Assembly (NCBI GenBank): GCA_009781425.1
Contig: WQYC01000009.1
Location: 1-64,000 of the forward strand
Direction: 5' to 3'
Source of the DNA: Oscillospiraceae bacterium
GTDB lineage: Bacteria; Bacillota; Clostridia; Oscillospirales; Ruminococcaceae
DNA length: 64,000 nt
Numbering within the stretch: position 1 is the stretch's first letter; each line of letters opens with the position of its first letter. The notes below the pieces were generated by a model. It was not told the origin of the DNA, ran no database searches, and saw nothing but the letters and a program-made list of their open reading frames with translations. The position numbers and the translations under genes were made by a program. Positions 2,731-37,601 of the stretch are shown piece by piece.

Positions 2731-2739
2731 GACAAAAAC

Positions 2740-3456
2740 ATGAAAAAAATACTTGTTTGCGAGGACGAAGCCGCTATACGCGACTTTGTTGTAATAAATC
2801 TGAAACGCGCCGACTACGAGGTGGTTGACGTGGATTCGGGCGAGGCAGGCTTTGATGAATTCAAAAAAGCCCTTGACGAAGACCGTCCGTTTGACGTTGC
2901 GCTGCTTGACATAATGATGCCGGGAATGGACGGCACGGAGCTTTGCAAGCTGATTCGCGAGGAAAGCCGCGAAATAGGCATTATCATGCTTTCCGCAAAG
3001 TCGCAGGAAATGGATAAAATCACCTGCCTTACAATAGGCGCAGACGACTACGTAACAAAGCCGTTTTCACCGTCAGAATTAGTTGCACGAGTAGACGCGA
3101 TTTACCGCCGCGTGAGCCTTAACGCAGGCGCGGGCGCGAACTCAAAGGAGCTTGTTTCGGGGCCCTTCGCGGTTAATACTAAGAGCAGGGTAATCACAAA
3201 AGACGGCGAAGCGATTGACCTGACGCAGGTTGAATATCAAATCATGGAATATTTTATCAAGAACAGCGGCGTTGCGCTTGACAGAAAGAGCATTTTAGTG
3301 CATATTTGGGGTGAAGCGTATTTCGGCGACGACAAAATCGTTGACGTTAATATAAGAAGACTGCGCATGAAGGTGGAAAGCGACCCGTCGAACCCGGTTT
3401 TTATTCAGACTGTGTGGGGCTTCGGATACAAATGGCAGAGCGGCAATGGCTCGTAA
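2740..3456 (+). CDS. OmpR/PhoB-family response regulator
   Basis: This DNA-binding response regulator of 238 aa has a receiver domain (about 1-122) with the acidic pair in CEDEAA, phospho-acceptor Asp in LLDIMMPG, the switch region MLSAKS and the Lys in VTKPFSP. The C-terminal winged-helix domain (about 135-232) shows LTQVEYQIMEYF and the VDVNIRRLRMKV recognition region. It starts 9 nt after fakA and overlaps the histidine kinase gene by 11 nt, so the two form one translationally linked pair. The genes it controls cannot be told from the sequence. Confidence 0.93.
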   Translation: MKKILVCEDEAAIRDFVVINLKRADYEVVDVDSGEAGFDEFKKALDEDRPFDVALLDIMMPGMDGTELCKLIREESREIGIIMLSAKSQEMDKITCLTIGADDYVTKPFSPSELVARVDAIYRRVSLNAGAGANSKELVSGPFAVNTKSRVITKDGEAIDLTQVEYQIMEYFIKNSGVALDRKSILVHIWGEAYFGDDKIVDVNIRRLRMKVESDPSNPVFIQTVWGFGYKWQSGNGS

Positions 3457-23682: not shown

Positions 23683-24069
23683 TTAAGCCGCTCTAACTCC
23701 TTCGATATGAATCAGCCGAAGCTCTTCAAATGAGTAAGTATCAACCGCCCTGTTAATCGAATCATAAGTATGCGCCGCAATAAGAATATTATCGGGCGTC
23801 GGGAGCTCGCCTGTTTCGAGCACAACTAAATTATGCTGAAAGGTAAGTCCGTCGAAGCTGATTTGAATAAAATCGCCGGGCATTGCCCTGTAGAGCGGCT
23901 GAAAGCTGCCGTAAGGTCCCGCGCCTTTATTCGTTGTAAGAAAGCGCGCGAAGTATTCAACGCCTGTCCACGCAGGCGCGCGGTCGTTCAGCGAGTTGTA
24001 GTACCAGCCATAGTGCGGGGTGAAGTTCATGACGCCCGCGCCCGCGTAGAGGACTTGGGAGGCGAAGTT
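23683..24069 (-). pseudogene. C-terminal half of an amidase-domain gene (Amidase_6 type), split by the integrated element
   Basis: Read from NFASQVLYAGAGVMNF onward, the frame is a typical putative amidase domain: GWYYNSLNDRAPAWTGVEYF, GPYG, then GDFIQIS and QHNLVVLE. The only ATG in the fragment (24030) falls inside the conserved VMNF block, so it is not a natural start. The part carrying the catalytic Cys (GGDCT) is missing here and lies at 34764-34865, 10.7 kb away on the same strand. Joined, the halves give about 162 aa, the normal size. Upstream of 24069 the frame runs into the element and meets a stop within 20 codons. The fragment is probably not expressed. It lies downstream of no visible promoter. 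Confidence 0.85.
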
Positions 24070-24092
24070 GAAGAGCTCCCGAATAAACCCAT
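24068..24092. other. Left attachment site of the integrated element
   Basis: Core TT at 24068-24069, then 12 nt, then AATAAACCCAT (24082-24092). The 11-bp arm is the exact inverted match of the arm at the other end (34739-34749), also 12 nt from its core. Confidence 0.8.
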
Positions 24093-24112
24093 GAAACCCG
24101 CAATATTAAGAA

Positions 24113-24140
24113 AATCGGCGGGGATTACTCCTCGCCGATT
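24113..24140 (-). terminator. Terminator overlapping the stop of the HhH protein gene
   Basis: AATCGGCG (24113-24120) pairs with CGCCGATT (24133-24140). On the minus strand it is followed by TTTTCTTAAT. The stop codon lies in the loop. Confidence 0.7.
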
Positions 24141-24535
24141 GCTTGTTTTAATACTCTTAAAAACTCATTGCGTGACCCTGCGCCCATGTTTCTGATTCCG
24201 ATTAAATCCTTTATAGAGTCACTCTTGAAAACGAAATCCCTTAGATATTCAACCCCCGGCGACCTGCCGAGCGCGTTCGTAATCCGCGTCGCCATTTTGT
24301 CGGTGCTGAAGCTTAAATCAGCGATTTTCACATCATAAAATTCACGCGGAACATCTACGCCCATGATTTTGAGCGGCGGCATAGTCCTTGCTTTTTTGCT
24401 TGCTTCATCGTTTTGCACCTTCTTTTCTATGCGGCGCATAATCGCGAAAATGTCGCGGCGCTTGTAACCCATTTCGTCGAGGGTTGCGTGAAGATGTTTT
24501 AAAATCGGATTTTTATATAAGCTTGTAGTTTCCAT
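24125..24535 (-). CDS. Small protein with RNA-polymerase-alpha-CTD-like helix-hairpin-helix end
   Basis: The protein has 136 aa and no signal or membrane segment. The C-terminal ~45 residues (LRDFVFKSDSIKDLIG, IRNMGAGSRNEFLRVL) look like the helix-hairpin-helix of the RNA polymerase alpha C-terminal domain, where S-x-x-D-L-x-x-I-x-N-x-G-x-x-S is typical. The N-terminal part is basic and helical (YKRRDIFAIMRRIEKKV). It could bind DNA or RNA polymerase; this is inference. It is the gene nearest the left att site, driven by a perfect promoter with operator palindromes, and ended by its own terminator. Similar small proteins occur in clostridial accessory regions. Confidence 0.65.
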   Translation of the reverse strand: METTSLYKNPILKHLHATLDEMGYKRRDIFAIMRRIEKKVQNDEASKKARTMPPLKIMGVDVPREFYDVKIADLSFSTDKMATRITNALGRSPGVEYLRDFVFKSDSIKDLIGIRNMGAGSRNEFLRVLKQAIGEE

Positions 24536-24577
24536 ATTTTTACCCGCCTTACTTTCTGAATGATAATATTATATTCT

Positions 24578-24628
24578 ATTATATACGGCGTAGCCGTATA
24601 TGTCAAGTCCAAATACGGCTGAGCCGTA
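24578..24628 (-). promoter_or_regulatory. Consensus promoter with two operator palindromes
   Basis: On the minus strand TTGACA, exactly 17 bp, then TATAAT (24606 down to 24578). The whole spacer is the palindrome TACGGC-N3-GCCGTA. A second copy, TACGGC-TGA-GCCGTA, lies just upstream (24614-24628). Binding there would block RNA polymerase. Confidence 0.8.
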
Positions 24629-24636
24629 ATATAATT

Positions 24637-24672
24637 AAATGAGCAGGGCTTCAAAAACCCCGCTCATTAATT
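24637..24672 (-). terminator. Terminator of the sigma/anti-sigma operon
   Basis: On the minus strand AATGAGCGGGG faces CCCTGCTCATT with one mismatch and a 9-nt loop, followed by TAATT. Confidence 0.6.
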
Positions 24673-24687
24673 ATAAAAGCTACTTTC

Positions 24688-25065
24688 TTATGTACAGCAG
24701 AATATTGCTTTTTGACCTATTAAAGTCATAATGGTATGGTTGCAACCCGAACGAGTACAATAATCTACTCTGTATGACGTTTGTCTGCACCTCGGAGTAG
24801 TCGGGAAAACGCGGTGTTCTATCGTTATCGCTCCTGTTACTGCCATAGTATGATTACAAGATGAAGCGGGAGTAATGCTGATAAATCCGTTAGCTTCTGC
24901 GATAAGCATATCGGTTATTAACTGCGCTTTTTGACTGCCAACAGCACAATCAATAATAACCTCAACAGTGACCTCATCACTGACCGCAAAGGACGCGCCG
25001 CCCAACTGAATGAACATTAACATTGCCATTAAAACCGCTAAGGGTCTGCGAAATACTTTTTTCAT
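24688..25065 (-). CDS. Exported Cys/His-containing small protein
   Basis: I do not recognise this 125-aa protein. It has a clear signal peptide (LAVLMAMLMFIQLGGASFA). The mature part (about 95 aa) holds two CNHT motifs (SSCNHTMAV and SGCNHTIMT) and further cysteines (RCRQTSY, DYCTR, IFCCT), so it may bind metal or form disulfides. It is the last gene of the sigma factor/anti-sigma operon; its ribosome site (AAAGGAG) overlaps the anti-sigma stop region. By position it could be a target or ligand of that system; this is inference. Confidence 0.65.
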   Translation of the reverse strand: MKKVFRRPLAVLMAMLMFIQLGGASFAVSDEVTVEVIIDCAVGSQKAQLITDMLIAEANGFISITPASSCNHTMAVTGAITIEHRVFPTTPRCRQTSYRVDYCTRSGCNHTIMTLIGQKAIFCCT

Positions 25066-25071
25066 TGCTTT

Positions 25072-25860
25072 TTAATTCTCCTTTAAATTTCTTATTATTT
25101 CCGATATTACAGCTTTGTCGCTGACAATTATCGTATAATAATCTGTATCGCTAACCCAAAATGCTTGATATGTGCCGTCACCCATATCTGAAATATTATA
25201 CCAAATCCCGTTTTCTTCATAAGTATAATCAATAGAATGAATCTCTGCACCTATATTAATTGAAAAAGTAATATTCGGTTCTAACGAGCTTGCCCATACA
25301 TCTATATAATCGCCAATATCCATAACCGTAAAGCTTGTGAAGTTATATCCTACGGGGAATAGAATATTCAAACCTTCCGTTTCAAGCAATTCATTCATAG
25401 AATTATAGAATCGTATTTCATCTTTTATAAACATTTCAGTGCCACTAAAATCTGTAGTCGTTTTATCGGGTGCGTTCAAAGCATTTCTGAAAAAATCAAC
25501 AAGATTAAATCCAAGAGCAAGTGAAATACCCTGTGCGAATAATGCTGTAACTATCGTGATAATTAAGACTGCCGCGATTCTTCGCATTGTTTTAATTGAT
25601 TTGCTTCTTCGTTTTTTTTGCTCGCGCTTTTTTATGATTGCTTCAAACGGAGGCTTCTGAATATCTCTGCTGTATTTCTCGTTGCGGCTCATGCCCGCTG
25701 TGCAGAACATAAGGACATCTGCGCTCGGCTCGTCAAGCGTCAGCTCGTGACCGAACAGCATTTCGTATTCCTTTATGCTCATTAAATCCGCGTCAAGCGC
25801 GCTGTTCAAGAACATTTCGCGGAGCTCCTGCGCTGAAAGATTTTCGTATCTGCCTTGCAT
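25072..25860 (-). CDS. Membrane anti-sigma factor-like protein with DUF4367-type outer domain
   Basis: The protein has 262 aa. The N-terminal cytoplasmic part (about 1-88) is acidic then strongly basic (KKREQKKRRSKSIKTMRR). One membrane segment follows (about 92-115). The outer part (about 120-262) is beta-rich with aromatic residues and resembles DUF4367 domains seen in anti-sigma proteins. It starts 36 nt after the sigma factor stop, with a perfect ribosome site (GGAGGTGA, 8 nt). The order sigma, then a single-TM protein, is the classic arrangement for a sigma/anti-sigma pair. Confidence 0.75.
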   Translation of the reverse strand: MQGRYENLSAQELREMFLNSALDADLMSIKEYEMLFGHELTLDEPSADVLMFCTAGMSRNEKYSRDIQKPPFEAIIKKREQKKRRSKSIKTMRRIAAVLIITIVTALFAQGISLALGFNLVDFFRNALNAPDKTTTDFSGTEMFIKDEIRFYNSMNELLETEGLNILFPVGYNFTSFTVMDIGDYIDVWASSLEPNITFSINIGAEIHSIDYTYEENGIWYNISDMGDGTYQAFWVSDTDYYTIIVSDKAVISEIIRNLKEN

Positions 25861-25896
25861 TGATATTCACCTCCTTTGTCTGAATTTTTATGCTTA

Positions 25897-26394
25897 TTAT
25901 ACCTCTAAAACGTTTTTGACTTTTTCTTTTAAGCGGGTAATGCGTACTTCTGCCGAGTGCTTCTTTATGCCGATTTCATCGGCGATTTCTTCCATTGAGC
26001 GATGTTCAACAAATCTTAATTTAAACAGCCTGTAGTCAGCCCTTTTTAACTTTTTCTCTAATATTTTCAGCAGCTCGTTGCACTGCTCATCGTATTCTCT
26101 TTTTTTGTTTTCATTCTCCGGTTTGAGAGAATCGATGTCTTCTTCGGAGAACCGCGCGCCCTCAAGGAATTGATTTTGTTTGTAGCGTTTGGCGATATTC
26201 TTGGCTGTCACGGCAAGCCAACCGTGTATATTAGGGTGCTTTTCAAGGTTTTCAAATTCCAAAGCAGTTTTATAAACTTCGCTGATACAGTCGTCAAGGT
26301 CGAAATCGTTGATTTGAACAGCGACATAAATGATTGTGTTCCTTACAAGATTGTAATACTCTTGTTCATCATAAAGTTTTTTGATAAATTCCAC
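25897..26394 (-). CDS. ECF-type sigma factor
   Basis: The protein has 165 aa with a GTG start, and AAAGGGGGC lies 7 nt upstream. Region 2 is at about 10-75 (LVRNTIIYVAVQINDFDLDDCISEVYKTA, shortened here as the D-x-D-D-C-I-S-E-V-Y motif). Region 4 is at about 105-160, with a helix-turn-helix RLFKLRFVEHRSMEEIADEI. It would direct RNA polymerase to an extracytoplasmic-stress-type promoter set. First gene of a three-gene operon with the anti-sigma-like protein and the exported Cys/His protein. An operator-like palindrome lies 60-75 nt upstream, so the element's XRE repressor may control it. Confidence 0.88.
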   Translation of the reverse strand: MEFIKKLYDEQEYYNLVRNTIIYVAVQINDFDLDDCISEVYKTALEFENLEKHPNIHGWLAVTAKNIAKRYKQNQFLEGARFSEEDIDSLKPENENKKREYDEQCNELLKILEKKLKRADYRLFKLRFVEHRSMEEIADEIGIKKHSAEVRITRLKEKVKNVLEV

Positions 26395-26453
26395 TTAAAA
26401 AGCCCCCTTTCTTTGATAGTTTTAAAAATTCTGCCGTAAATTTACTGCTGGGT

Positions 26454-26468
26454 TACGGTGTCGCCGTA
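26454..26468. promoter_or_regulatory. Degenerate operator upstream of the sigma factor gene
   Basis: TACGGT-GTC-GCCGTA is one mismatch from the TACGGC-N3-GCCGTA palindrome found at 24584, 24614 and 27149. Confidence 0.55.
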
Positions 26469-26525
26469 TATATATCAAATTAGAACGACAAAATTCTACA
26501 TTTCGTTATAAACTGGTACGCGCCG

Positions 26526-26867
26526 TCAGCAAAGCACGACGCTTTTCTTCCCTGTCCGCCTTTTGTATAAAGAGCCGACAAAGTCCTTCACAAGCTCGCA
26601 ATCCTCGTCGGTCAGCTCGTCCGGTATGAAAACATGGCGTTTATTCTTGTCGCGCGACAAGGTCACGTAATTCTCCCGACCGAGGAGGTAGTCCGCCGAA
26701 ACACCGAAATATTCCGCCAAAGCAAGAAAAGTCATGATGTTGGGCGTGGCGTCGCCGCTCTCGTAAGCCGCGATTTGCTGTCGGGTGGTGTTTATTGCCT
26801 TTGCTAACTTGGTTTTAGATAAAAACTTATCTTCTCTCAGTTCGTATAGGATTCTGTTGAATTTCAT
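26526..26867 (-). CDS. XRE-family transcriptional regulator
   Basis: The protein has 113 aa from the ATG at 26867, which has AAGGAG 8 nt upstream. The longer open frame to 27071 has no such site and adds no domain. The Cro/CI helix-turn-helix covers about 5-62 (SKTKLAKAINTTRQQIAAYESG, then FLALAEYFGVSADYLLG). A charged tail follows (DELTDEDCELVKDFVGSLY), like many element-borne repressors. It is a good candidate to bind the TACGGC-N3-GCCGTA sites near it and at 24.6 kb; that is inference. It has its own promoter at 26914-26942. Confidence 0.85.
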   Translation of the reverse strand: MKFNRILYELREDKFLSKTKLAKAINTTRQQIAAYESGDATPNIMTFLALAEYFGVSADYLLGRENYVTLSRDKNKRHVFIPDELTDEDCELVKDFVGSLYKRRTGKKSVVLC

Positions 26868-26913
26868 TTCTGCCGCTCCTTGAAGTAAAAAATCGTTTGA
26901 TGTTCTACTAACT

Positions 26914-26942
26914 ATTATAGCGTATCGGAAATGAGAGGACAA
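26914..26942 (-). promoter_or_regulatory. Promoter of the XRE regulator
   Basis: On the minus strand TTGTCC, 17-bp spacer, TATAAT, about 47 nt before the start codon. Confidence 0.65.
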
Positions 26943-26953
26943 GTAAACCGTTA

Positions 26954-27130
26954 TTATTTCATACGGCGCGTCGGAATTTGTAACACTTTGTCGAAAAAGC
27001 ACCCGTAAAAATGATATATGATAAGGGAATTTAAGGCAAGTTCCCACACCGGACTGCCCGATATAGCGCAAAAGTGTATAAATTCAATCATAATCCCGCC
27101 TCTTTTCGGTTCTTCCTTCGTTTTCGACAT
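26954..27130 (-). CDS. Possible 58-aa ORF behind an operator-bearing promoter
   Basis: The frame from 27130 (ATGTCGAAAACG) encodes 58 aa with a hydrophobic middle (FIHFCAISGSPVWELAL, then IIYHFYGCFF). A shorter start at an internal ATG has GAGGCGGG before it. Its only strong support is the consensus promoter and operator directly upstream (27142-27171). It may instead be a leader RNA for the XRE gene or simply untranslated. Low confidence. Confidence 0.25.
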   Translation of the reverse strand: MSKTKEEPKRGGIMIEFIHFCAISGSPVWELALNSLIIYHFYGCFFDKVLQIPTRRMK

Positions 27131-27141
27131 CTCGTATACTC

Positions 27142-27171
27142 ATTATAATACGGCGTAGCCGTATATGTCAA
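27142..27171 (-). promoter_or_regulatory. Consensus promoter with operator palindrome in the spacer
   Basis: On the minus strand TTGACA, 18 bp, TATAAT. The spacer holds TACGGC-N3-GCCGTA (27149-27163), as in the promoter at 24.6 kb, and the DNA from the operator to -35 is identical in both. A half site (TATACGGC) lies upstream at 27177-27184. Confidence 0.75.
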
Positions 27172-27238
27172 GACGATATACGGCGATAAACTACGGATTT
27201 TCGCCATTATTCAACATATTTCGGGAAATGGGGTTAAA

Positions 27239-27544
27239 ATGAGCTTAGGGGAAAGAATCCAACAAACGCTTGATTTAAAGAAAATATCGCAGACGGAGCT
27301 CGCGAGAAGGTTGAAAATTCCTCTTTCGACATTAAACGGCTATGTGCAGGAGCGTTATATGCCGGATTGCTTCAAATTAAAAGAAATCGCGAACGCTCTT
27401 GACGTTTCGGCGGATTTTCTGCTTGAAATTAGTTCGAGCGAGGTTTTGAATGAAGAGGAAGTTGCGCTCGTTGTGAAGTATAGAGGGCTGAGCGAGGAGA
27501 AGAAGAAGGTTGGGTTGGAGTATTTTAGGTTTCTTGGGGGGTAG
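27239..27544 (+). CDS. XRE-family transcriptional regulator (101 aa)
   Basis: The helix-turn-helix covers residues about 4-60 (GERIQQTLDLKKISQTELAR, then STLNGYVQERYMP), followed by LKEIANALDVSADFLL. A short acidic tail with ALVVKYRGLSEEKKKVG is typical of Firmicute phage and island repressors. It is divergent from the other XRE gene across a 370-bp control region with operators. It is less AT-rich than the kinase gene that follows, so it may belong to the regulatory core of the element rather than to the kinase module. Confidence 0.85.
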   Translation: MSLGERIQQTLDLKKISQTELARRLKIPLSTLNGYVQERYMPDCFKLKEIANALDVSADFLLEISSSEVLNEEEVALVVKYRGLSEEKKKVGLEYFRFLGG

Positions 27545-27616
27545 AAATTAGATGAGATGATTGTTGGTTGTGTTTTGATTCTTTGTGGGATTGTGTATGA
27601 GCTTGGCGCACCGTCC

Positions 27617-27653
27617 ATGAACACATTAGTGTTCATTACATTTTGGATATAAT
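27617..27653 (+). promoter_or_regulatory. Palindrome and -10 element before the PocR-like kinase
   Basis: ATGAACAC-ATTA-GTGTTCAT (27617-27636) is a perfect inverted repeat. TATAAT follows at 27648-27653, but no good -35 exists, so the palindrome may be an activator or repressor site. Confidence 0.5.
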
Positions 27654-27703
27654 GCAGGATTATAAATATACCTAATAAAAAATTATAACAAGGAGTAAAT
27701 AAA

Positions 27704-30154
27704 ATGTCTTCTACAATTAACAAAATAGGTTTATTTGAAAAACCAACACACTTAATTAAAAGTGAAAATAACGAGAATGATGTTAAATATGTGACTTCGC
27801 GAGACGATTTGCAAATGCATGTTGAAAAATTATGCATGAGCTTAAAGCATCCCGTTGTTATGTTTTCTTTATACAACGGCGAAAATAATGATAAGATTGT
27901 GCGATTAGTTTCATGTGTATCTTCCTTTTTTAATCATTATTGTTGCGAATCATTTCGTATTTGCGGTGGAAAAGAGCATTGTGAGAAGTGTGATGAAGAC
28001 CATGCTAAATTGTTTAGAAGCAAGGATGGTATACCTATAAAAGTATCGGAAATAGAAAATCGAGTAAATGATAATATTAGGGAATACATGGAAAATTATA
28101 GTGAAGAAAAAAAACCTATATATTATAATGATTATTATGATGTTAATATGTTTAAACCTGTTTTTCATCTAGCTAATAATTCAAGTGAAGGTGGATATTT
28201 GGAATATTATTGTCCTATATTAGGATATAAGGAACTAGTTTTCCCTATTATTGTTTCGGATAGAGTTTTAGGAGTGGTTTTTCGCGGGCAAGTGCAAATT
28301 AAAGGCGATAAAAAACCAAGTATAATAAGAAATAATTTTTTAAATAAGAAATGTAATTTATTCGATGATTATTTTAAACGTAATTCTAAATCAGGAACAA
28401 AATCAAGAAATATAATAGGAACAAAAGAAGAATTAATAAAAGATTTACGCACAGGAGAAGATAAGTATAAATCAAACATCCCCAAATACCCAATTGATAA
28501 AGATAAATTATCTGAATTTTTTGATGAGGGTTGGGCAAGATATAAATTTGATGATATATGGGGGAAAAAATTTTTTAATGCCGAGATTAAAAAGATTAAT
28601 ATAGAAATAAATAAAATTAATAAAGAATTAAGTGAAAGAATGAGGGAAAATAAAAAAAGATATATAACCAATGTTTTTAAAAGTACTACTAAAGAGTTTT
28701 ATGAAAAGGTTATGAACTCACAGGTAACTCCTGCAAAAAAAAGCAACATTAAACCTTATTGGAAATTTGTAAAAAAATCATTTGAAAAAATAGTGGAAAA
28801 ATTAGACCTTCATAATATTCAAATTTATGGAGCTTCAATTCCTCATGCAGATACTGAAAAAAATAACGCTCTTGAAATAGAAGTTTTTGCAGGCAATGAA
28901 AAACATGCAAAACCAAAGCATTTTGATTTATATGAAAGCGACAAAGATAGTAAATCGCCTTTTTTAAGTAATGTTTCTTTAGAAATTGGGAATGTTAAAT
29001 CTAATGAAGATTTAAAAAACAGAATAAAGGATAGTGAGAAAAGGACATATAAAGGAAACAGCGATATTATTTATTATCTAGTAAAAAACAATTTACCTCA
29101 TTCATCAGTTCTTGCTATTGAATATTTTGAAGATGGAGAAGAGGATATTGAAATTTCTGAAATTCAAATTATAAAACGTGATATTATATCAGAAATCCAT
29201 CTTTTTTCCATTATTGTGTTTTATATCAGTTCTTATCAATTAAATCATTTGCTTCAATTGAATACTGTAAAAATATTACGTTTCTTCAACCATGAAATAT
29301 CTCATGTGCTTTTGGGTTTTAACTTTTTAAATGAAATGTATATAAAAAATAAGTTAGAGAATTTAATAAATTTAAAACCAAAAGAGCTTGAAGATGTACA
29401 AATGAATTTTAAAAGTACTGAAGATTTAATGAAATCTATATCAAACAATATCAAATTACTGACAAAACCTATAGACGAGATAAAAGAAAAATTAGGAATT
29501 GAAGAAATAAGAATATTTAAAGATATTTTATATAAATGGGAACATTTATATCATTATCAAATTGAAGAAAAAAATCTAAAAATCCATGTTCCACCAATAT
29601 ACGAAAATAAAGATTTACCATTAATCAAAAGTGATAGACGTTTATTAGAGCAAATTATTATAAATATTATTCATAATGCAATTAAATATTCTTACTGGGG
29701 AACGAGAATAATAATTGATTGTAAACCTTTTGATAAAAATCCTTTAAAGCAAATACTTTCTGTGGCAGATTATGGTGCGGACATTGACAGTGGAGCTCTC
29801 CCCTATAAACTATATTACAGAAAAACTAATATTTCATTAAACATAGAAGGAAGCGGTATAGGTCTTTTTGTAGTTAAAAGAATTGCTGATATTCTTGATA
29901 TTCAAATAAGACATACAAGAAAAAAGATTTCTGACTATAATATTGGTTTAATTGAAGAATTTCTTAACAGAAATATTAGCAACGGCTTACAAGACATTTT
30001 GTTAAATGAAAAATCAAAAATTGAAAAAAAATATAAACTGAGCGATATTTTATCTGATGCTAAGCCGACAGAAGATAATTGTCTAAGTAATAACGAAATA
30101 AATGAAATGATAAAAATGCCTACATATAAAGTAACATTTGAGGTGATAATATGA
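27704..30154 (+). CDS. PocR-like sensor domain histidine kinase
   Basis: This 816-aa protein is very AT-rich and has no membrane segment. The N-terminal ~220 residues resemble a PocR sensory domain: a Cys cluster (HYCCESFRICGG, EHCEKCDED) and the later FPIIVSDRVLGVVFRGQVQ. A coiled-coil middle (about 290-345) follows. The dimerisation helix near 525 has FFNHEISHVLLGF with a candidate phospho-His. The HATPase end shows an N box (IINIIHNAIKYS), a weakened G1 box (VADYGADIDSG) and a good G2 box (EGSGIGLFVVKRIAD). The stop overlaps the next gene by 4 nt. It is a cytoplasmic sensor kinase, perhaps of a metabolite or redox state; the ligand is unknown. Confidence 0.78.
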   Translation: MSSTINKIGLFEKPTHLIKSENNENDVKYVTSRDDLQMHVEKLCMSLKHPVVMFSLYNGENNDKIVRLVSCVSSFFNHYCCESFRICGGKEHCEKCDEDHAKLFRSKDGIPIKVSEIENRVNDNIREYMENYSEEKKPIYYNDYYDVNMFKPVFHLANNSSEGGYLEYYCPILGYKELVFPIIVSDRVLGVVFRGQVQIKGDKKPSIIRNNFLNKKCNLFDDYFKRNSKSGTKSRNIIGTKEELIKDLRTGEDKYKSNIPKYPIDKDKLSEFFDEGWARYKFDDIWGKKFFNAEIKKINIEINKINKELSERMRENKKRYITNVFKSTTKEFYEKVMNSQVTPAKKSNIKPYWKFVKKSFEKIVEKLDLHNIQIYGASIPHADTEKNNALEIEVFAGNEKHAKPKHFDLYESDKDSKSPFLSNVSLEIGNVKSNEDLKNRIKDSEKRTYKGNSDIIYYLVKNNLPHSSVLAIEYFEDGEEDIEISEIQIIKRDIISEIHLFSIIVFYISSYQLNHLLQLNTVKILRFFNHEISHVLLGFNFLNEMYIKNKLENLINLKPKELEDVQMNFKSTEDLMKSISNNIKLLTKPIDEIKEKLGIEEIRIFKDILYKWEHLYHYQIEEKNLKIHVPPIYENKDLPLIKSDRRLLEQIIINIIHNAIKYSYWGTRIIIDCKPFDKNPLKQILSVADYGADIDSGALPYKLYYRKTNISLNIEGSGIGLFVVKRIADILDIQIRHTRKKISDYNIGLIEEFLNRNISNGLQDILLNEKSKIEKKYKLSDILSDAKPTEDNCLSNNEINEMIKMPTYKVTFEVII

Positions 30155-30621
30155 AAATATTAATACTTGAAGATAGAAGCCCTGCTTACAAGAATATAAA
30201 ATCGTATATGGAATCATTAAATTTTGAACCGAAAATATTTCGTAAAACGAGTCAGTTATTAGAAGAAATAAATAAGGGAACATTTAATGAAAATTCTTAT
30301 GATTATTATATTCTCGATTTAAGCTGTCCCATTGGAAAGATGGAAGAAGATTATGCCGAAAAAACAAAAGACGGTCTGCTTACTGGTTGGATTATATTAA
30401 TATATTACATATTAAAAAAAGATTTACATGCTTTAGACAAATGCATTATATTTTCCGATTATAAAAAGGATTTAAATTCGTATATTGATAATGCACCGCA
30501 CGAAGAAAAAATATTATATAATAAAATTAATAAAAATGCATTTATAAATAAAGTTGACGGATATATGAAAATAAAAAAATTCTTTATTAATGAAAATAAA
30601 TATAAGGAAGACACATCATAA
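30151..30621 (+). CDS. Atypical stand-alone receiver protein
   Basis: The 156-aa protein overlaps the kinase stop by 4 nt, so it is translationally coupled to it. Receiver hallmarks: ILILEDRS (acidic pair Glu-Asp), YYILDLSC (phospho-Asp) and IIFSDYK, with a Lys in NKINKNAF. Between the phospho-Asp and the switch Ser it has an unusual insert ending DGLLTGWIILIYYILKKD, which its neighbour shares. It has no DNA-binding or enzymatic output. It presumably receives phosphate from the kinase next door; the target is unknown. Confidence 0.7.
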   Translation: MKILILEDRSPAYKNIKSYMESLNFEPKIFRKTSQLLEEINKGTFNENSYDYYILDLSCPIGKMEEDYAEKTKDGLLTGWIILIYYILKKDLHALDKCIIFSDYKKDLNSYIDNAPHEEKILYNKINKNAFINKVDGYMKIKKFFINENKYKEDTS

Positions 30622-30689
30622 TTAATTAAAAATGTATTAAATATATCAATTAATATTATTAATATTGTTTATACAAAGAGGAGAAAATC

Positions 30690-31265
30690 ATGAAAGATTT
30701 TAAAAAACCTATGAGAATATTTGTATTTGATGATAATCCCGCAACCAGAAAATATATTAAATCATATTGGGAGAATAAAGGTCATGCTGTAACATCTTGT
30801 CATTCATGTGAAAAAGCTGTAAAAATAATAAATAATAATGTATTCGATTTATACATTATTGATTTGAGTGCGTCTCCGAAAGGGTTAGAAAATGAAGACT
30901 TCATTAGTGAGAATGGTTTTTTTCTTACAGGGTGGTTTTTATTTAAAGACCACATTCTTGTAAACGATGAAGAAGCAATATGTAAAACTGTTTTTTATTC
31001 AGAACATATAAGCGAGTTAAAAAGTTTTATCAAAAAATCACCGTATGCATATGAATATCGAAAAAAACTTCATAAATATTTTCAATTATTGGGGGCTTTT
31101 GTTTATAAATCTGAAACTTTGGAAAGCTTGGAAGACTTTATAGAAGACAAAAATGTAATAATTGATAAATTGAGAGAATTGGCAGATGATAAAATGATTG
31201 GAGAGTTAAAAGGTTTGGAAGATGAAATTAAACAAATGAGGAAAGATAGATTCATATTGAATTAA
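30690..31265 (+). CDS. Second atypical receiver protein of the same type
   Basis: The protein has 191 aa. It begins MRIFVFDDNPATRKYIKSYW after a short lead, with the Asp-Asp pair, then YIIDLSAS (phospho-Asp), the shared insert NGFFLTGWFLFKDHILVND, and VFYSEHIS for the switch Ser. The last ~60 residues form a charged coiled coil (about 135-190) that the first receiver lacks. A separate strong ribosome site (AGAGGAG) and a 68-nt AT-rich gap suggest independent tuning. Related to the gene at 30151; the pair probably arose by duplication. Confidence 0.68.
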   Translation: MKDFKKPMRIFVFDDNPATRKYIKSYWENKGHAVTSCHSCEKAVKIINNNVFDLYIIDLSASPKGLENEDFISENGFFLTGWFLFKDHILVNDEEAICKTVFYSEHISELKSFIKKSPYAYEYRKKLHKYFQLLGAFVYKSETLESLEDFIEDKNVIIDKLRELADDKMIGELKGLEDEIKQMRKDRFILN

Positions 31266-31704
31266 TACTTAACATTTTAAATGCCAATTCAATATTTTCT
31301 TCGCTCAGTCTCTTTTTGCAATCAACATTGATAAAATGGTTTTCATGCCCGATGAATTGCGATTTAGGGTAATCATCTAAAATAACATAATTGATTTTTT
31401 CACTGTTGTCTTGAATTGAAAACCAAGCCGATATTTCTTCGCCGCGAGTTGTTTCGCCTTGATAATCGGGTGTGCAATTCCGATATGTTAAGCCGAATTT
31501 TTCAAAAACCTTGCCGATGTCTTCACGGCATTTGCGATGACTACGCCATGATGAAGACAGCACAGTTTCCGCTCCGGTAGAATCGACAAGCCGCTTCAAT
31601 AAAAATAATTTTGACGGGTCAATACCTATATCTTTCATCAAGCGTTGATATTTTGTGGATAAAGGATTAAGAACGCCGTCAATATCAAGGAAAATATATT
31701 TCAT
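31252..31704 (-). CDS. HAD-family protein of the RNA-repair-associated type (HAD_SAK_2-like)
   Basis: The protein has 150 aa from the ATG at 31704 (AAAGGACG upstream). The longer frame to 31818 is not supported. HAD motif I is IFLDIDGVLNP, motif II is TVLSSSWRSH and the late acidic motif is YVILDDYPKS. This compact HAD type is known as the HAD domain of Swiss-army-knife RNA-repair proteins and also stands alone in many bacteria. The substrate is unknown. It overlaps the receiver gene tail-to-tail by 14 nt and lies divergent from a DUF2828-like pseudogene. Confidence 0.72.
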   Translation of the reverse strand: MKYIFLDIDGVLNPLSTKYQRLMKDIGIDPSKLFLLKRLVDSTGAETVLSSSWRSHRKCREDIGKVFEKFGLTYRNCTPDYQGETTRGEEISAWFSIQDNSEKINYVILDDYPKSQFIGHENHFINVDCKKRLSEENIELAFKMLSINSI

Positions 31705-31946
31705 TTCAATCGTCCTTTTATCTGTGTATAATGTATTTATAATATAACAAAGAAATTTTGAAATGTCAATGGATTCCCGCGTACAACAAATTGTACAAAT
31801 GCGAAAATCCATTGACATAATTATTTTTATGGAGTTGAATATAAAGCAGACCGAAAAGCACTAACAGCAATCATAAAACGCTAATGAGAAACAATCGGAG
31901 TTAAAATCAATTTTATAGTGCTTTGTTATTAGAAAAGGAGAAAGTT

Positions 31947-32862
31947 ATGTTACAAGCTTTAAAGAATCAAGCGAATATTACGCGTACTGAAAACAACGCA
32001 ATTACAAACTTCTCCACGGGTTCGGACTGCCTCAATTTATTCGCAACAATCGGCGCGTTACGTGACGCCCCGAACGCAGAAATTATTAAACGCTTCACCC
32101 GCCGCATGGGCTGAAGACCCCGACCTTACCTTGAAGACATTATTCTTTGCAAGGGATATTCGCGGCGGTTTGGGTGAGCGGAAGATTTTCCGCTCAATTT
32201 TATGCCATATGGCAAGTGACGCGCCTTCATCGGTTCAAAAGAATCTGTGGGCTATGCCGGAATTTGGGCGTTATGATGATTTGCTGACCCTGCTTGACAG
32301 CCCGATGAAGCAGGAAATAGTCGCATTAATAAAAGCACAGCTTGACGCAGATTTAAAGGCTCTCGCGGCAGACAAAAGCATTTCTCTGCTCGGCAAGTGG
32401 CTTCCCTCTGTCAACGCCCACAACGCAGATACAGTGCGTTTAGCGAAGCTTCTCGCAAAGTCTCTCGGCATGAACGAAGCCGATTACCGCCGCACATTGT
32501 CAAAGCTCCGCGCAAAGATTGCTATAATTGAAAATTATCTGCGCGAGCGGAATTATACTTTCGATTATGAAAAGCAACCGTCTAAAGCGATGTTCCAATA
32601 TCGCGGCGCATTTATGCGTAACGACGGAGAACGATATGCAAAGTTCCTCAAAAGTGTTACAAAGGGCGAAGCTAAATTGCACACAGAGACGTTATATCCG
32701 TATGAAATAATTCGTCCGATTCTGCACGGCTCTATGACTGACGATAAGCGCAAAAGCGTTGATGTAACATGGAACGCGCAGGAGGATTTCACTTGCGATG
32801 AAAATGCGCTCGTTGTAACATTAGATAGCGATGTCATTTTCACGAAATTTGTCATTTTTTAA
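31947..32862 (+). pseudogene. Frameshifted and truncated DUF2828/TROVE-vWA-like gene
   Basis: The ribosome site AAAGGAG precedes ATG at 31947. The first frame (TENNAITNFSTGSDCLNLF...EIIKRF) stops at 32114. The second frame continues with AAWAEDPDLTLKTLFFARD, IRGGLGERKIF and GRYDDLLTLL. Removing a single C at about 32097-32101 restores one frame (RFTAAWAEDP). These motifs fit DUF2828, which couples a TROVE-like helical domain to a von Willebrand A domain. The frame ends at ALVVTLDSD, where the vWA metal site should begin, so that domain is gone. TROVE proteins bind small RNAs. The frameshift could be a sequencing error; the truncation would remain. Confidence 0.7.
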
Positions 32863-32908
32863 TTCCCTTTCTATTTTTTAATAGCAGTTTTTTAACGCCG
32901 CCAATTAT

Positions 32909-34369
32909 TTATGAAGAGTTAAACTCAATGCTTTCAATCACAACTTCATTCACTCGTTTATACTTCCCCTTTTCTTTCGTCACGATAATTTTGTTAATGA
33001 ATAAAAGCAGAAACTGCCGCTTTTCTTTATCATCTAACAGCTCCCAATTCTCCCTTAAACTTAAAATAATATCGCTTTCAGTAATAATCATTTCATCTTC
33101 AAGCGAAGCATTTATTTTTTCGATTTCTGAATTAATAAATTTCTTATCTTTATTAATTTTTCGCTTCATGTTTTCATAGCTTTCAAAATCAATGCGATTT
33201 TCAATAAACAGATTTTCAATTTGACTGCTTTTTGAAAATAATTCATTCAGCTTTTTATTGAAATTTGCAATTGCTTTTGAACGGTCAGTTTTGATTCTTT
33301 CTTCTTCATTAAATACTATTTTATCTGCCGCAGAAAACCTTGAAATATAGCTTATAAAATCTACAAAAGCGGCTTCTATCTTCTTGTGATTTATGTCGCC
33401 GGAATCACAGCGTCCTTCCGACTTATAACCGCAACGATATGAAACGTAAATTTTTTCGGTTTGATTTTTCAGTCTTATTTTTCGGTGATGTGTCATAAGC
33501 TTTTTATCGCAGGAATTACAAAAAAGGATTCCCACAAAATAATTATTCTCACTCGGCTTTTTAGTCGAGGTTGTTTTTTTGTTTTTATTCAAAAGCCTCT
33601 GCGCTGTTTCAAAAAGCTCGCTTGATATAATAGGCTCATGCAAGCCGTCATACTCGTTGCAGTTGTAGCGGATTTTTCCGATAAGATTACAATTCGTCAA
33701 AACATCTTTCGCCGAGCCTCTGTCCCACAAAGCATTTTCTTTCGTCGGAATATTCCGCATATTTAAAGATTTCGTAATACCGAGAATCGTCATATTTTGA
33801 TTTACATACATATCAAATATTTCTCTTACAATCTCTGCTTCTTCATCGTTTACGGTTTGGATTTTCTGTCCGCACGGACGGTCATAACCGTAGCTCGCAT
33901 GAGTTGAGGACAGACTATAACCTTCCTTGGCTTTCTTTTCGCGTCCGAGCTTGACCCGCTCGATTATATTCTCGCGTTCAAATTCAGCAAAAGAGCCGAG
34001 CATATTTAACTGCAACCGCCCCGCGGGAGTTTGCGTGTCGATGTTTTCTGAAATTGAATTTATAACGCAATTGTGCTCGTAAAATAATTCAACCAAAGCT
34101 TGCAAGTCAGATATTTTCCTTGACAAGCGGTCTATTTTGAAAACAAGAATATTCTTTAAGCTCCCGCTCTTTACATCTTCAATCAAGCGCAAAAGAGCAA
34201 GGCGGTCTTTAATATTTTTACCGCTTATACCCTCATCTTTATAAACAGAATACACGTTCCAGTCTTTAATGCGCGCGTAATCAGCGAGCTTCTGCTCCTG
34301 CGCCCGAATCGAGAAGCCCTCCTGCGCCTGTTCGTCTGTTGATACTCTTATGTAAATTCCGGTTTCCAT
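32909..34369 (-). CDS. Large serine recombinase (site-specific integrase)
   Basis: The protein has 486 aa. The resolvase domain (about 1-150) begins GIYIRVSTDEQAQEGFSI with the nucleophilic Ser, and has VFKIDRLSRKISD and FAEFERENIIERV. The recombinase domain (about 155-260) includes YGYDRP and IVREIFDMYVNQNMTILGI. A zinc ribbon (about 280-335; FCNSCDKKL, YRCGY, GRCDSG) and a coiled coil (about 350-415) follow. It is directly upstream of the right att site, as usual for integrases of this family, and very likely inserted the element into the amidase gene. The ribosome site is GAGGAGC, and a 43-aa ORF precedes it in the same operon. Confidence 0.93.
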   Translation of the reverse strand: METGIYIRVSTDEQAQEGFSIRAQEQKLADYARIKDWNVYSVYKDEGISGKNIKDRLALLRLIEDVKSGSLKNILVFKIDRLSRKISDLQALVELFYEHNCVINSISENIDTQTPAGRLQLNMLGSFAEFERENIIERVKLGREKKAKEGYSLSSTHASYGYDRPCGQKIQTVNDEEAEIVREIFDMYVNQNMTILGITKSLNMRNIPTKENALWDRGSAKDVLTNCNLIGKIRYNCNEYDGLHEPIISSELFETAQRLLNKNKKTTSTKKPSENNYFVGILFCNSCDKKLMTHHRKIRLKNQTEKIYVSYRCGYKSEGRCDSGDINHKKIEAAFVDFISYISRFSAADKIVFNEEERIKTDRSKAIANFNKKLNELFSKSSQIENLFIENRIDFESYENMKRKINKDKKFINSEIEKINASLEDEMIITESDIILSLRENWELLDDKEKRQFLLLFINKIIVTKEKGKYKRVNEVVIESIEFNSS

Positions 34370-34382
34370 AAAAAGCTCCTCA

Positions 34383-34514
34383 TTATACAGCGGCTTCTGC
34401 TCTTTTCTTGCGCGGAATTGAAGTCTTCAGAAAGAATTTGAGCATTTCCACTTGGAGAGCATCGGGGAGGGATTTCTGTTTATCATTCTTGTAAATAGTA
34501 ATGTTTTTTGTCAT
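34383..34514 (-). CDS. Small basic 43-aa protein upstream of the recombinase
   Basis: MTKNITIYKNDKQKSLPDAL, then a helical basic end (KKRAEAAV). GAGG lies 6 nt upstream of its ATG, and it ends 13 nt before the recombinase start, so the two are co-transcribed from the palindromic promoter at 34610-34641. It is too short for a domain call; a recombination accessory factor is a guess by position only. Confidence 0.5.
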   Translation of the reverse strand: MTKNITIYKNDKQKSLPDALQVEMLKFFLKTSIPRKKRAEAAV

Positions 34515-34608
34515 GATTACCTCGAAAATATTGTAGAGCCGTGTCTGTTTATGTTTATGAAGCGAACAGACAACATATACTAAAGTACCGGCACTGATAC
34601 TTTTTTAC

Positions 34609-34642
34609 TTGACATTATAACGTATATACGTTATAATGTCAG
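34609..34642. promoter_or_regulatory. Perfectly palindromic bidirectional promoter
   Basis: A 32-bp perfect palindrome (half site TGACATTATAACGTAT, 34610-34641). On the plus strand TTGACA (34609-34614), 17 bp, TATAAT (34632-34637). On the minus strand CTGACA, 17 bp, TATAAT in the same DNA. It can fire only one way at a time and drives the recombinase operon (minus) and a 32-aa ORF (plus). Confidence 0.8.
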
Positions 34643-34653
34643 AGGTGATAAAA

Positions 34654-34752
34654 ATGAACCTAAACGAACGTGAGGGTGATTTGCATTTTATAATAAACGT
34701 GCTTGAATCGGGTGAAATTAGGGAGCTATACGAGCGAAATGGGTTTATTTAA
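34654..34752 (+). CDS. 32-aa ORF between the palindromic promoter and the right att site
   Basis: ATG at 34654 with GAGGTG 6 nt upstream, about 10 nt after the predicted transcription start. The product is acidic (MNLNEREGDLHFIINVLESG, then EIRELYERNGFI). Its last codons and stop form the right att arm. In the excised circle the att arms would join next to this ORF. The strong promoter and ribosome site suggest real expression; the function is unknown. Confidence 0.5.
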   Translation: MNLNEREGDLHFIINVLESGEIRELYERNGFI

Positions 34753-34763
34753 GCTCCCGGTTT
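34739..34763. other. Right attachment site of the integrated element
   Basis: ATGGGTTTATT (34739-34749), 12 nt, then the core TT (34762-34763). Mirror image of the left site at 24068-24092. Confidence 0.8.
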
Positions 34764-34865
34764 TGTGCAATCCCCCCCAATCATCTCAAAATTATAATAA
34801 TCGGGACTGCGCGACAGCGCCCATTCCCGCGCATAAGCGACCGCCTCTTCTCTGTTGTATTCCAT
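34749..34865 (-). pseudogene. N-terminal piece of the split amidase-domain gene
   Basis: From ATG at 34865 the frame reads MEYNREEAVAYAREWAL, then YYNFEMIGGDCT, the typical start of Amidase_6-type proteins with the catalytic Cys in GGDCT. After ACAAA (34762) the sequence becomes element DNA and ends KPGA-stop. The missing part resumes as NFASQ at 24069 on the same strand. AAGGCGG lies 7 nt before the start. The truncated product lacks the rest of the papain-like domain and is surely inactive. Confidence 0.82.
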
Positions 34866-34868
34866 AAT

Positions 34869-34960
34869 AAAACCGCCTTTTCATTAATTGAGATTATATA
34901 TCAATATATGAAAAGACGGTTTTTGTTGACATAACATGAAATTAGTGGTAAAATTAAAGC
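34869..34960. repeat. 92-bp direct repeat, copy 1 (hairpin plus promoter)
   Basis: About 92% identical to 37608-37699. It holds a long hairpin (AAAACCGCCTTTTCAT paired with ATGAAAAGACGGTTTT, one mismatch) and a promoter TTGACA (34926-34931), 17 bp, TAAAAT (34949-34954). Here the promoter drives the hybrid kinase gene at 35010. Confidence 0.85.
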
Positions 34961-35009
34961 AGAAGATTTAACAATAAAGACATTGTGCAGAAGGAGCATA
35001 GGCGAAATT

Positions 35010-37601
35010 ATGAAAAATATGTCGTTTTGGGTTATTTTACTAATTATTATTTTTACCATAGCCTTATGCTTTATGAGCTTTCAGCTCGGGAGGGTAAACA
35101 CAGACGACCCGCTATACACTGATTTAAACTCATTCCCTGCTTATGTGAAAAATGGATTTGATGAAGCTTATAAATACATAACAGCCCCCGAACAGACCGA
35201 ATGGGAGTTAGAACTGCCGCCAAGCCATAACCGTGTTGTTTTGATGAGCGATTTACCTGCTTACGATTATGAGGAAGCCTACCCTATGTTTTCAACAGCT
35301 GACCGTGCTATCGGAGAGTTCACAATTTTAATCCCGTTTGAAATAACCAAGGAGCAATATGACGGCTTGTGGGAGGAATTTGTTCTTCCCGGAATGTACT
35401 TAGAAGGAATCGGCGAAAACTGGGAAATATTTTTAAACGGAACAACAGTAGCGTCTGAGGTTCATCTAAGCGAAAATAATGAAATTACTTCGTTTAGGAG
35501 CATGAGAAACGTAAAGTTCTCCTTTGACAGACAGTTTATAAATGAAGGCTCAAATATGCTGCTGATTCGTGTAATAGGCGCGCGGTCAAGCTATTGGACA
35601 GGCTTGGTATATACCTCGCCCTACTATATCGGCAATTATAAATATTTTGAAAATGATTATAATAATATTTTTACTATAATATTATTTTCAATTTGCTGTG
35701 TTTTAGCGTTTCATCATGTGCTTCTGTATTTATTCCGCAGAAAAGAGCATTATAGCTTAATCTTCGGATTGTTCAGCCTGTTGCTGGGATTATTTTTGAT
35801 AACCCGAGTTCCCGCGGTCAACTGGCTGTTCCCGAATACCAACTATTCGCAGCACTTAGAGCACCTTTCGCTTTTTCTGTTAGTCCCTTCGGTTGCAGCG
35901 TTTTTAGAAAATCTTAACTTCGGAAAAATAAGCCGCCCTACCTTAATATTCGCTTTTATGTGCATTATTGTTTCCGTTGTTCCTTTTTTCTTTCCTATTT
36001 GGTTCGCTTATGATTTGCTTACTGTTTGGTATGTTCCTATGGCAATCTACATTATAAGCGTGATTTTATTTAGAAATATTATTTGGGCATTAATAAAGCA
36101 TACACGTTCTAAAATGTCTGCCGAAAATTCAACAAAAGGCTTTGGGAGTTGTTTTTTTGACACTATCGCCAATACAGAGCTGGGTAATATATGTCTCTTG
36201 ATGACGTTATGTGTTATTTCCGGTATCTTAGACATGATAGATGCGACTGTATTTTATACGGGGATTCAGCTTGCCAAGTATTCATTCACGGGCTTTACAT
36301 TGTGTATGACTTATATAATGGCAAAGAAATACGCCAACGCTTTTAATGTATCGGTTAAAATGAACGAAGAGTTAAACAGCCTTGTAAAACAGCGCACGGC
36401 AAAGCTTGAGGAACAGATGCTTATTGCCGAAACTGCATCACAAGCCAAGTCGCAGTTTCTCGCTAATATGAGCCATGAAATCCGCACGCCGTTAAATGCA
36501 ATAATAGGTATTACGCAAATCGAGCTGCAAAAGAGCAAGCTTGACGAAGAGGATTTAACAGGGCTGAGCGCAATATATAATTCGGGTGTAAATCTACTCG
36601 GAATTATCAACGATATTTTAGATATGTCGAAAATTGAAAACGGAAAGTTTGAACTTAGTCCTGTTCAATACGATATTCCGAGCTTAATAAACGATGCAGT
36701 TCAATTTAATATAATAAAAATAGAAAGCAAGCCGATTGAATTCGTGGTGACAGTTTCGGAAAATCTGCCGATTGAATTGTTCGGCGACGATTTGCGAATT
36801 AAACAAATCTTGAATAATCTGTTAAGTAACGCTATTAAATATACCGACGAGGGCACAGTTACACTTGATGTTGACTTTAAAGAAAAAAGCGATGATGAAA
36901 TCATATTGGTCTTCACTGTAAGCGACACAGGTCAAGGTATAGCCGAGAGCGAGCTTTCAAATCTTTTTAACGCTTATTCACAGTTTAACAGAGAAAATAA
37001 CCGAAGCATTGAGGGGACGGGGCTCGGTCTGGGTATAACAAACAGCCTTGCTTCTATGATGGAAGGGGAAATAACGGTTGAAAGTGAGGTAGGGCGCGGC
37101 TCGGTATTCAAGGTTAATTTAACGCAAAAGGTTGTCAGCGGAAGTGGCAGAGTTGGCAAAGAATTGTCAGAACAGCTGCAAAGCTTTAATTACTCTTATA
37201 AAACAAAGCTCTTGGAAAAAGGACTCACTCACAAGCGTATGTCGCACGGTAAGGTTTTGATTGTTGATGATGTCAGGACAAATTTGTTTGTAGCCGAGGG
37301 CTTGATAAAGCCCTACGACATATCAATTGAGACAGCCGCAAGCGGATTTGAAGCTCTCGACAAAATTAAAGCGGGAGAGACTTATGACATAATATTTATG
37401 GACCACATGATGCCGAAAATGGACGGCATTGAAACCGTGAAATTAATTCGTGACATCGGTTACAAAGGAATTATAGTCGCACTTACCGCCAACGCAATTA
37501 TCGGACAGGCAGAGGTTTTCCTCGAAAGCGGGTTTGACGATTTTATTTCAAAGCCGATAGATATTCAACAGCTTGATATAGTTTTGAAAAAATATATATA
37601 A
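35010..37601 (+). CDS. Membrane hybrid sensor histidine kinase with 7TM-type input
   Basis: About 863 aa from the ATG at 35010; the longer frame from TTG 34984 is less likely because AAGGAG lies inside it. TM1 (about 4-22) and an extracellular beta-rich domain (about 25-205; WEIFLNGTTVASEVH resembles a 7TMR-DISM outer domain). About seven membrane segments (about 215-430), a coiled coil, HisKA (FLANMSHEIRTPLNAIIG), HATPase (LLSNAIKYT; SDTGQGI; GTGLGLGI) and a C-terminal receiver (VLIVDDVRTN; IIFMDHMMPKMDG; ISKPIDI). The kinase core is similar in order and sequence to that of the large kinase at 18870. It lacks HPt and DNA-binding parts, so a further partner is needed. It is bounded by the two 92-bp repeats. 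Confidence 0.9.
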   Translation: MKNMSFWVILLIIIFTIALCFMSFQLGRVNTDDPLYTDLNSFPAYVKNGFDEAYKYITAPEQTEWELELPPSHNRVVLMSDLPAYDYEEAYPMFSTADRAIGEFTILIPFEITKEQYDGLWEEFVLPGMYLEGIGENWEIFLNGTTVASEVHLSENNEITSFRSMRNVKFSFDRQFINEGSNMLLIRVIGARSSYWTGLVYTSPYYIGNYKYFENDYNNIFTIILFSICCVLAFHHVLLYLFRRKEHYSLIFGLFSLLLGLFLITRVPAVNWLFPNTNYSQHLEHLSLFLLVPSVAAFLENLNFGKISRPTLIFAFMCIIVSVVPFFFPIWFAYDLLTVWYVPMAIYIISVILFRNIIWALIKHTRSKMSAENSTKGFGSCFFDTIANTELGNICLLMTLCVISGILDMIDATVFYTGIQLAKYSFTGFTLCMTYIMAKKYANAFNVSVKMNEELNSLVKQRTAKLEEQMLIAETASQAKSQFLANMSHEIRTPLNAIIGITQIELQKSKLDEEDLTGLSAIYNSGVNLLGIINDILDMSKIENGKFELSPVQYDIPSLINDAVQFNIIKIESKPIEFVVTVSENLPIELFGDDLRIKQILNNLLSNAIKYTDEGTVTLDVDFKEKSDDEIILVFTVSDTGQGIAESELSNLFNAYSQFNRENNRSIEGTGLGLGITNSLASMMEGEITVESEVGRGSVFKVNLTQKVVSGSGRVGKELSEQLQSFNYSYKTKLLEKGLTHKRMSHGKVLIVDDVRTNLFVAEGLIKPYDISIETAASGFEALDKIKAGETYDIIFMDHMMPKMDGIETVKLIRDIGYKGIIVALTANAIIGQAEVFLESGFDDFISKPIDIQQLDIVLKKYI

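Follow-up and report, generated by a model that had tools for sequence, protein, structure and literature searches.

An integrative island in an Amidase_6 gene of an Oscillospiraceae bacterium, with features of a sporulation gene-intervening element

In the 64,000-nucleotide stretch of an Oscillospiraceae bacterium genome analysed here (the window), an Amidase_6 gene, predicted to encode a cell-wall amidase, was found in two parts, separated by a 10.7-kb segment at 24070-34761 that is almost certainly a non-phage integrative island with readable attachment (att) sites. The island is probably a sporulation gene-intervening element of the skin or gin kind. Its own large serine recombinase (LSR) inserted it by a single AA/TT crossover between attP and an attB spanning the conserved active-site codons for GGDCT/NFASQ, and it would stay in place in growing cells. 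During sporulation, a sigma-E-type promoter active in the mother cell would then drive expression of a small upstream protein (a putative directionality factor) together with the recombinase. Excision would follow, and the rebuilt amidase would be made from its own sigma-E/K-type promoter. Sporulation-timed excision appears rather likely in view of the promoters, the relatives and the further sporulation genes that are split, and sequence together with comparison to relatives establishes the island, its sites, the exact in-frame join and the reuse of the site.

The split amidase gene and its attachment sites

The features that define the split gene, the sites and the recombinase operon are as follows.

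34764-34865, minus strand: 5' part of the Amidase_6 gene, 34 codons (MEYN...GGDCT), equivalent to residues 1-36 of the joined protein in matches
23683-24069, minus strand: 3' part of the gene, from NFASQ through the stop codon; alone matches Amidase_6 (E 3.8e-12)
34762-34763: attR core, TT (coding strand: AA), the sole choice of dinucleotide that restores the frame
24068-24069: attL core dinucleotide, TT (coding strand: AA)
24082-24092, minus strand: left attP arm AATAAACCCAT, exactly 12 nt from the attL core
34739-34749, plus strand: right attP arm ATGGGTTTATT, exactly 12 nt from the attR core
32909-34369, minus strand: large serine recombinase, 486 amino acids (Resolvase PF00239, 1.2e-39; Recombinase PF07508, 5.8e-19; zinc ribbon PF13408, 1.6e-7; all above cut-off)
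34383-34514, minus strand: 43-amino-acid open reading frame (ORF), candidate recombination directionality factor, directly upstream of the recombinase and conserved in its clade

The initial annotation had described an amidase frame broken after GGDCT and resuming at NFASQ on the same strand, and joining the minus-strand halves (34865-34762 and 24069-23683) at the AA/TT core did give a clean, stop-free frame of 162 amino acids, with no extra base at the join, as had been claimed. As the join is exact, excision of the island would rebuild the amidase gene. The TT common to both junctions and the 11-bp inverted arm lying 12 nt from each core also proved correct in position and sequence; the arms are inverted relative to each other, giving a predicted attP of arm, 12 nt, AA, 12 nt, arm. 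The right junction reads AAAA and so allows three positions of the core, and this was placed at 34762-34763 because that is the single position keeping the frame and the same one that makes the arms symmetrical. In Monte Carlo sampling, pairs of positions were drawn at random from the window and the 40 nt around each were compared: 11 bases matched in the same register in 4 of 200,000 pairs, and in any register in 14 of 20,000. The G+C content of the island was 0.35 (0.27 for 27700-31900), compared with 0.48 and 0.46 in the flanks. An assembly artefact, with halves from different molecules or a misjoined island, is very improbable: the genome assembly is in 67 contigs, but both junctions lie well within a single contig of 69.7 kb, the sites have the symmetry of LSR sites, and the arrangement recurs in another genus.

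The joined amidase protein had matches in 35 of 60 genomes, and in at least 146 of 394 in an order-wide survey (own genome included in both counts), and within the window's own genome (G000) nothing but the two halves matched. An uninterrupted copy in relatives, which the initial annotation had proposed to look for, was present in G085 of the same genus, where the gene on contig C23 is whole, with halves abutting, and 82.5% identical at the amino acid level over 160 residues. By blastn, window segments 34762-34932 and 23735-24070 meet in G085, where 24070 aligns with position 5793 of locus L113 and 34762 with position 5795. The divergent neighbour of the window (37700-38788) stands directly upstream of the intact amidase in G085, with the same order in G017, and in both genomes the empty site equals the joined flanks of the window island, as it should for an LSR element. 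A sensor-kinase-type gene (34983-37601) lies between the amidase and this neighbour in the window, with no room for it there in G085 or G017; its presence or absence is a difference independent of the island.

The same codon was found split in UBA946, a Ruminococcus metagenome-assembled genome, by another element of 11.8 kb with a recombinase 53% identical to that of the window (L064, all on a single contig and strand: 5' part 1275-1373, recombinase 1643-3115, 3' part 13147-13512). Joined at the same AA, the UBA946 halves give an unbroken protein, and the core is the same as in the window; the UBA946 arm TGCAGGGAACTAAATAAACCCC is laid out like the window arm ACCGGGAGCTTAAATAAACCCA. In G012, a recombinase 57-58% identical adjoins an amidase 3' part whose first codons are those seen in the window, although in G012 this pairing lies at the other end of the element. 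The earlier proposal that 24070-34761 is an island with attL and attR in an amidase gene is thus upheld by intact homologues in the same genus, by the UBA946 element, which splits the identical codon, and by the way one recombinase subclade follows this target.

In G012 (L036, 13230) and G026 (L037, 122), the nine bases beside the amidase core are amidase-like (GACTGCACC) despite an arm-like motif in the window register. Among the matches listed in the order-wide survey, one further match starts at the split codon, in G123; it proves nothing, since its contig ends 2 bp past that codon. Contigs were seen to end about 118 bases (G026, L037 start) and 2 bases (G123, L114 end) beyond the amidase split codon, which mixed excised and integrated copies could cause, and so could repeats.

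The amidase promoter, the recombinase clade and its small upstream ORF

The target amidase is probably a mother-cell sporulation gene, judging from its family and promoter motifs, a role that the initial annotation had passed over along with the clade elements in other sporulation genes. The Amidase_6 gene yhbB of Bacillus subtilis has sigE regulation (PMC10653849) and appears in spore-coat lists (PMC3533761, PMC4433262). Upstream sequences were collected from 43 amidase loci, 9 of which had no usable upstream; the 34 kept, several of them closely related, were combined with the window. The motif CATANNNT occurred within 75 nt of the start in 28 of these 35 upstreams, whereas 60 shuffles averaged 3.65 and never exceeded 7. 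The z scores were 11.0 for sigma-K-type pairs, 6.8 for sigma-E and 5.7 for sigma-A, scores that are inflated by kinship among the sequences. Scoring used promoter consensus sequences that we take to be those of the respective sigma factors, and the counts given here supersede a first sigma-E test on the amidase upstreams. The 3' halves of the window, G012 and G026 differ mainly at silent sites, with a ratio of nonsynonymous to synonymous substitution rates (dN/dS) of 0.05-0.08, that is, purifying selection.

When 26 recombinases were placed in a tree, those linked to an amidase, three in number, grouped together (100/99) within a clade of 17 rows (100/99), outside which several long branches are uncertain. 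Clade counts below refer to the 16 members with upstream sequence, window included; L045, whose recombinase is truncated by the end of its contig, and L073, which lacks upstream sequence, are excluded. The genes beside these 16 operons comprise three amidase genes (window, UBA946 and, on the other side, G012), three sigK, dpaA or dpaB genes, three other split genes and seven that are unassigned. A sigK 5' part (TIGR02846, 2.3e-16) adjoins the recombinase in G040 and dpaA (DpaA_N, 1.3e-20) that in G003, and in G101 the recombinase (132893-134401) lies between two dpaB parts (125475-125921 and 134719-134841) that share a contig and a strand. The G096 member adjoins a cupin gene with a probable 3' part 9.7 kb further on, and those of G085 and G227 adjoin one unnamed gene. 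Among the seven unassigned, G040:C9 adjoins a feoB-type gene, G120 an APH-family gene and G036 a PG_binding gene.

An ORF of 40-65 amino acids (...LPKELQKEMLKFFLKTSIPRKK...) was present in all 16 clade members, ending within 26 nt of the recombinase or overlapping it, and is a candidate directionality factor; it had no convincing Pfam or NCBIfam family, a weak PHROG match and nothing in phages or plasmids. Upstream of this ORF, sigma-E-like pairs scored z 7.5 and sigma-A 3.4 across the 16 clade operons. None of 60 column-permuted motifs reached the true sigma-E score (maximum 3.6), 14 was the best of 11 fixed spacings (4.7), and 34 window genes gave 1.6 for sigma-E and 6.2 for sigma-A, where the clade operons gave 7.5 and 3.4.

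Other split sporulation genes and the weighing of alternatives

Other spore genes, in the window's genome and in relatives, look broken by islands of a similar sort, which suggests that cells may excise the window island to switch the amidase on. The window's genome contains four Spo0A-type domains, and recombinase matches number 19, among which some are fragments of a single gene. A sigK 5' part on contig C3 (L151, 10376-10732), 90% identical to G085 over residues 5-123, adjoins a serine recombinase, as does a dpaB 3' part on C11 (L152, 7255-7518). The sigG gene is in two parts, residues 1-61 beside a recombinase on C5 (L153, 9635-9886, minus strand) and residues 60-221 on C57 (L167, 712-1197); these are about 97% identical to the whole G085 gene and, placed next to each other, share one frame. 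A 3' part with SleB-type and SpoIID/LytB matches comes immediately after a recombinase on C38 (L154, 7737-8633), and a motif search on that contig found no SleB-like 5' part. The recombinases beside these other split genes are 25-34% identical to that of the window. Divided genes also occur in other genomes: sigK in G026 and G227, where its two parts lie on separate contigs, and sigG, likewise bipartite, in G012 and G036. Two dpaB parts in G017:C2 (36775-37104, plus strand, and 45858-46130, minus strand), about 9 kb apart with a recombinase match nearby, look like an inversion.

Tentatively, and with less confidence than for the single island, we suggest that one genome may hold several developmentally excised elements, in Amidase_6, sigK, sigG, dpaB and a SleB-like gene, each split beside a distinct serine recombinase. 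The clade may represent an undescribed sporulation-controlled recombinase family, with subclades fixed on their own targets and a directionality factor in the same operon.

Several points weigh against a sporulation-timed element. We infer excision of the island, its timing and the role of the small ORF from sequence. The amidase upstreams beat shuffles for sigma-A too (z 5.7), and relatedness inflates all such scores, while the sigma-E match of the window's own operon scores 11 against a shuffle mean of about 10.2, which is weak and unconvincing alone. Seven of the 16 clade neighbours are unassigned, and the feoB-type and APH genes are not sporulation genes as far as is known. The UBA946 element carries a MobA/MobL relaxase (E 1.9e-67), and plain mobility therefore fits. 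The amidase 5' part was not found in G012 or G026 (searched at E 1), nor were the sigK and dpaB partner halves in the G000 assembly at the thresholds used; given these missing halves, a host that is losing sporulation is possible.

The chief rival is that the island is an ordinary integrative or mobilizable one, or a defective mobilizable element, whose attB happens to encode a conserved protein motif; excision would be rare and linked to transfer rather than to sporulation, and loss of the amidase would be tolerated. This we regard as unlikely. LSRs often use conserved intragenic sites, according to PMC10083194, and such an island would suit the UBA946 relaxase, the feoB-type and APH neighbours of at least two clade relatives, and a window operon whose promoter is weak for sigma-E with a sigma-A-like palindromic promoter further upstream. 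It sits poorly, however, with the 3 of 16 clade relatives that adjoin sigK, dpaA or dpaB, with a sigma-E-like motif in the clade set that beats its controls, with amidase upstreams that look sigma-E/K dependent and with purifying selection on the split amidase. The two readings may both hold, because gin itself may be transferred, according to PMC5595907. A dead remnant, past excising, in a host that is losing sporulation and with amidase halves that are pseudogene pieces, is quite improbable: a DUF2828 cargo gene is frameshifted and shortened, and one half is missing from sigK and from dpaB in the assembly, but the recombinase, the small ORF, the arms and both amidase halves are intact, and the sigG parts, so close to the whole G085 gene, are not decaying.

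Island content and comparison with known elements

The remaining features of the island are listed from the recombinase end.

34654-34752, plus strand: 32-amino-acid ORF ending within the right att arm, with no Pfam or NCBIfam match
34610-34641: perfect 32-bp palindrome covering a near-consensus promoter, TTGACA-17-TATAAT, that separates the recombinase operon from the 32-amino-acid ORF
31923-32862, plus strand: DUF2828 gene, decayed cargo, in two frames and shortened
31252-31818, minus strand: HAD_SAK_2 protein (E 3.4e-24 for the 31252-31704 form)
30690-31265, plus strand: response-regulator receiver protein (E 1.3e-6, slightly below the Pfam cut-off)
30151-30621, plus strand: receiver-like protein, with PADLOC PDC-M60C (E 6.7e-5) as sole basis and no Pfam match
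27704-30154, plus strand: histidine-kinase-like protein, 816 amino acids (HATPase_c, weak PocR)
27239-27544, plus strand: Cro/CI-type regulator (profile match)
26526-27071, minus strand: Cro/CI-type regulator, probable start 26867 (match for 26526-26867)
25897-26394, minus strand: extracytoplasmic function (ECF)-type sigma factor (E 2.3e-13, above cut-off)
25072-25860, minus strand: 262-amino-acid protein with no convincing family
24688-25065, minus strand: 125-amino-acid protein with no assigned family
24125-24535, minus strand: RNA polymerase alpha-CTD-like protein (E 9.1e-5, slightly below the Pfam cut-off)

No second copy of the 20-base centre of the palindrome (up to 4 mismatches) occurred in 24000-35000. 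The kinase and two receiver-like genes (27704-31265) are very AT-rich, with weak PADLOC matches to PDC-M60B/C, and no relative of the kinase turned up at E 1e-20 among 70 other genomes of the genus, nor in the genome_contigs collection. A known defence system was rejected, the matches consisting of the weak PADLOC ones of the two receiver-like proteins (best 6.7e-5) and a subtilase-model match of 0.0036 for 24688-25065. A prophage was likewise set aside, since Pfam gave no structural or packaging gene among the 13 island ORFs and PHROGs, run on four ORFs, gave an integrase as the sole named phage function in the structure or integration classes; nor did Pfam find a relaxase among the 13. Membership of the staphylococcal cassette chromosome (SCC) cassettes was rejected too: these insert in rlmH, and here the target is the amidase gene, and the recombinase scored 180.9 bits with the CcrB model, far short of its cut-off of 900. 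Against 1003 phage records and plasmids, all recombinase matches among those listed were below 60% identity.

Known examples of elements inserted in sporulation genes come from a few Bacilli and Clostridia. One close likeness is to gin of Bacillus cereus ATCC10987, described in PMC5595907 as lying in gerE with the GirC serine recombinase and the 42-amino-acid GirX factor: both are non-phage islands with a serine recombinase, inverted-repeat att sites and a predicted AA cleavage site, and the small sporulation gene and tiny directionality factor of gin have a probable and a candidate counterpart, respectively, in the window. The target and host differ, however, the window's small ORF stands directly before the recombinase, and its likeness to GirX is one of size and place. 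In skin, of Clostridioides difficile and B. subtilis, a serine recombinase splits a mother-cell gene, sigK, to which the clade relative in G040 is also adjacent; in C. difficile (CD1231, CD1234), the 72-amino-acid directionality factor CD1234 is under sigma-E, according to PMC5025042, and the small clade ORF recalls it by size and place. The window differs from skin in that its target is an amidase and its excision is predicted. The elements vfbin in spoVFB (dpaB), yin in yabG and SP-beta in spsM are called prophage-like in PMC4191935 and PMC10747680, unlike the window island, which has no phage structural gene among its 13 ORFs by Pfam; vfbin has a counterpart in the clade relative of G101, with dpaB in two parts around its recombinase. 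Other LSR elements share a conserved coding attB common to diverged recombinases, with no developmental control implied in PMC10083194.

In the literature searched (titles and abstract openings, with subscription papers outside its scope), no intervening element in Amidase_6, dpaA or sigG was found, and neither the recombinase clade nor a crowding of such elements in one genome was found reported. The kind of element is thus already known, and the target gene, the recombinase clade and the crowding in one genome appear new within that literature.

One uncultured genus seems to hold several such elements at once, with readable att sites and a conserved candidate directionality factor, which makes it testable how mobile elements turn into developmental switches and offers recombinase/factor pairs with predicted sites. 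If true, the split sigG would be a forespore case, in which excision should pass to the spore. Should sigG indeed prove to be split and then rebuilt, the idea that only the doomed mother cell harbours such switching would have to be revised.

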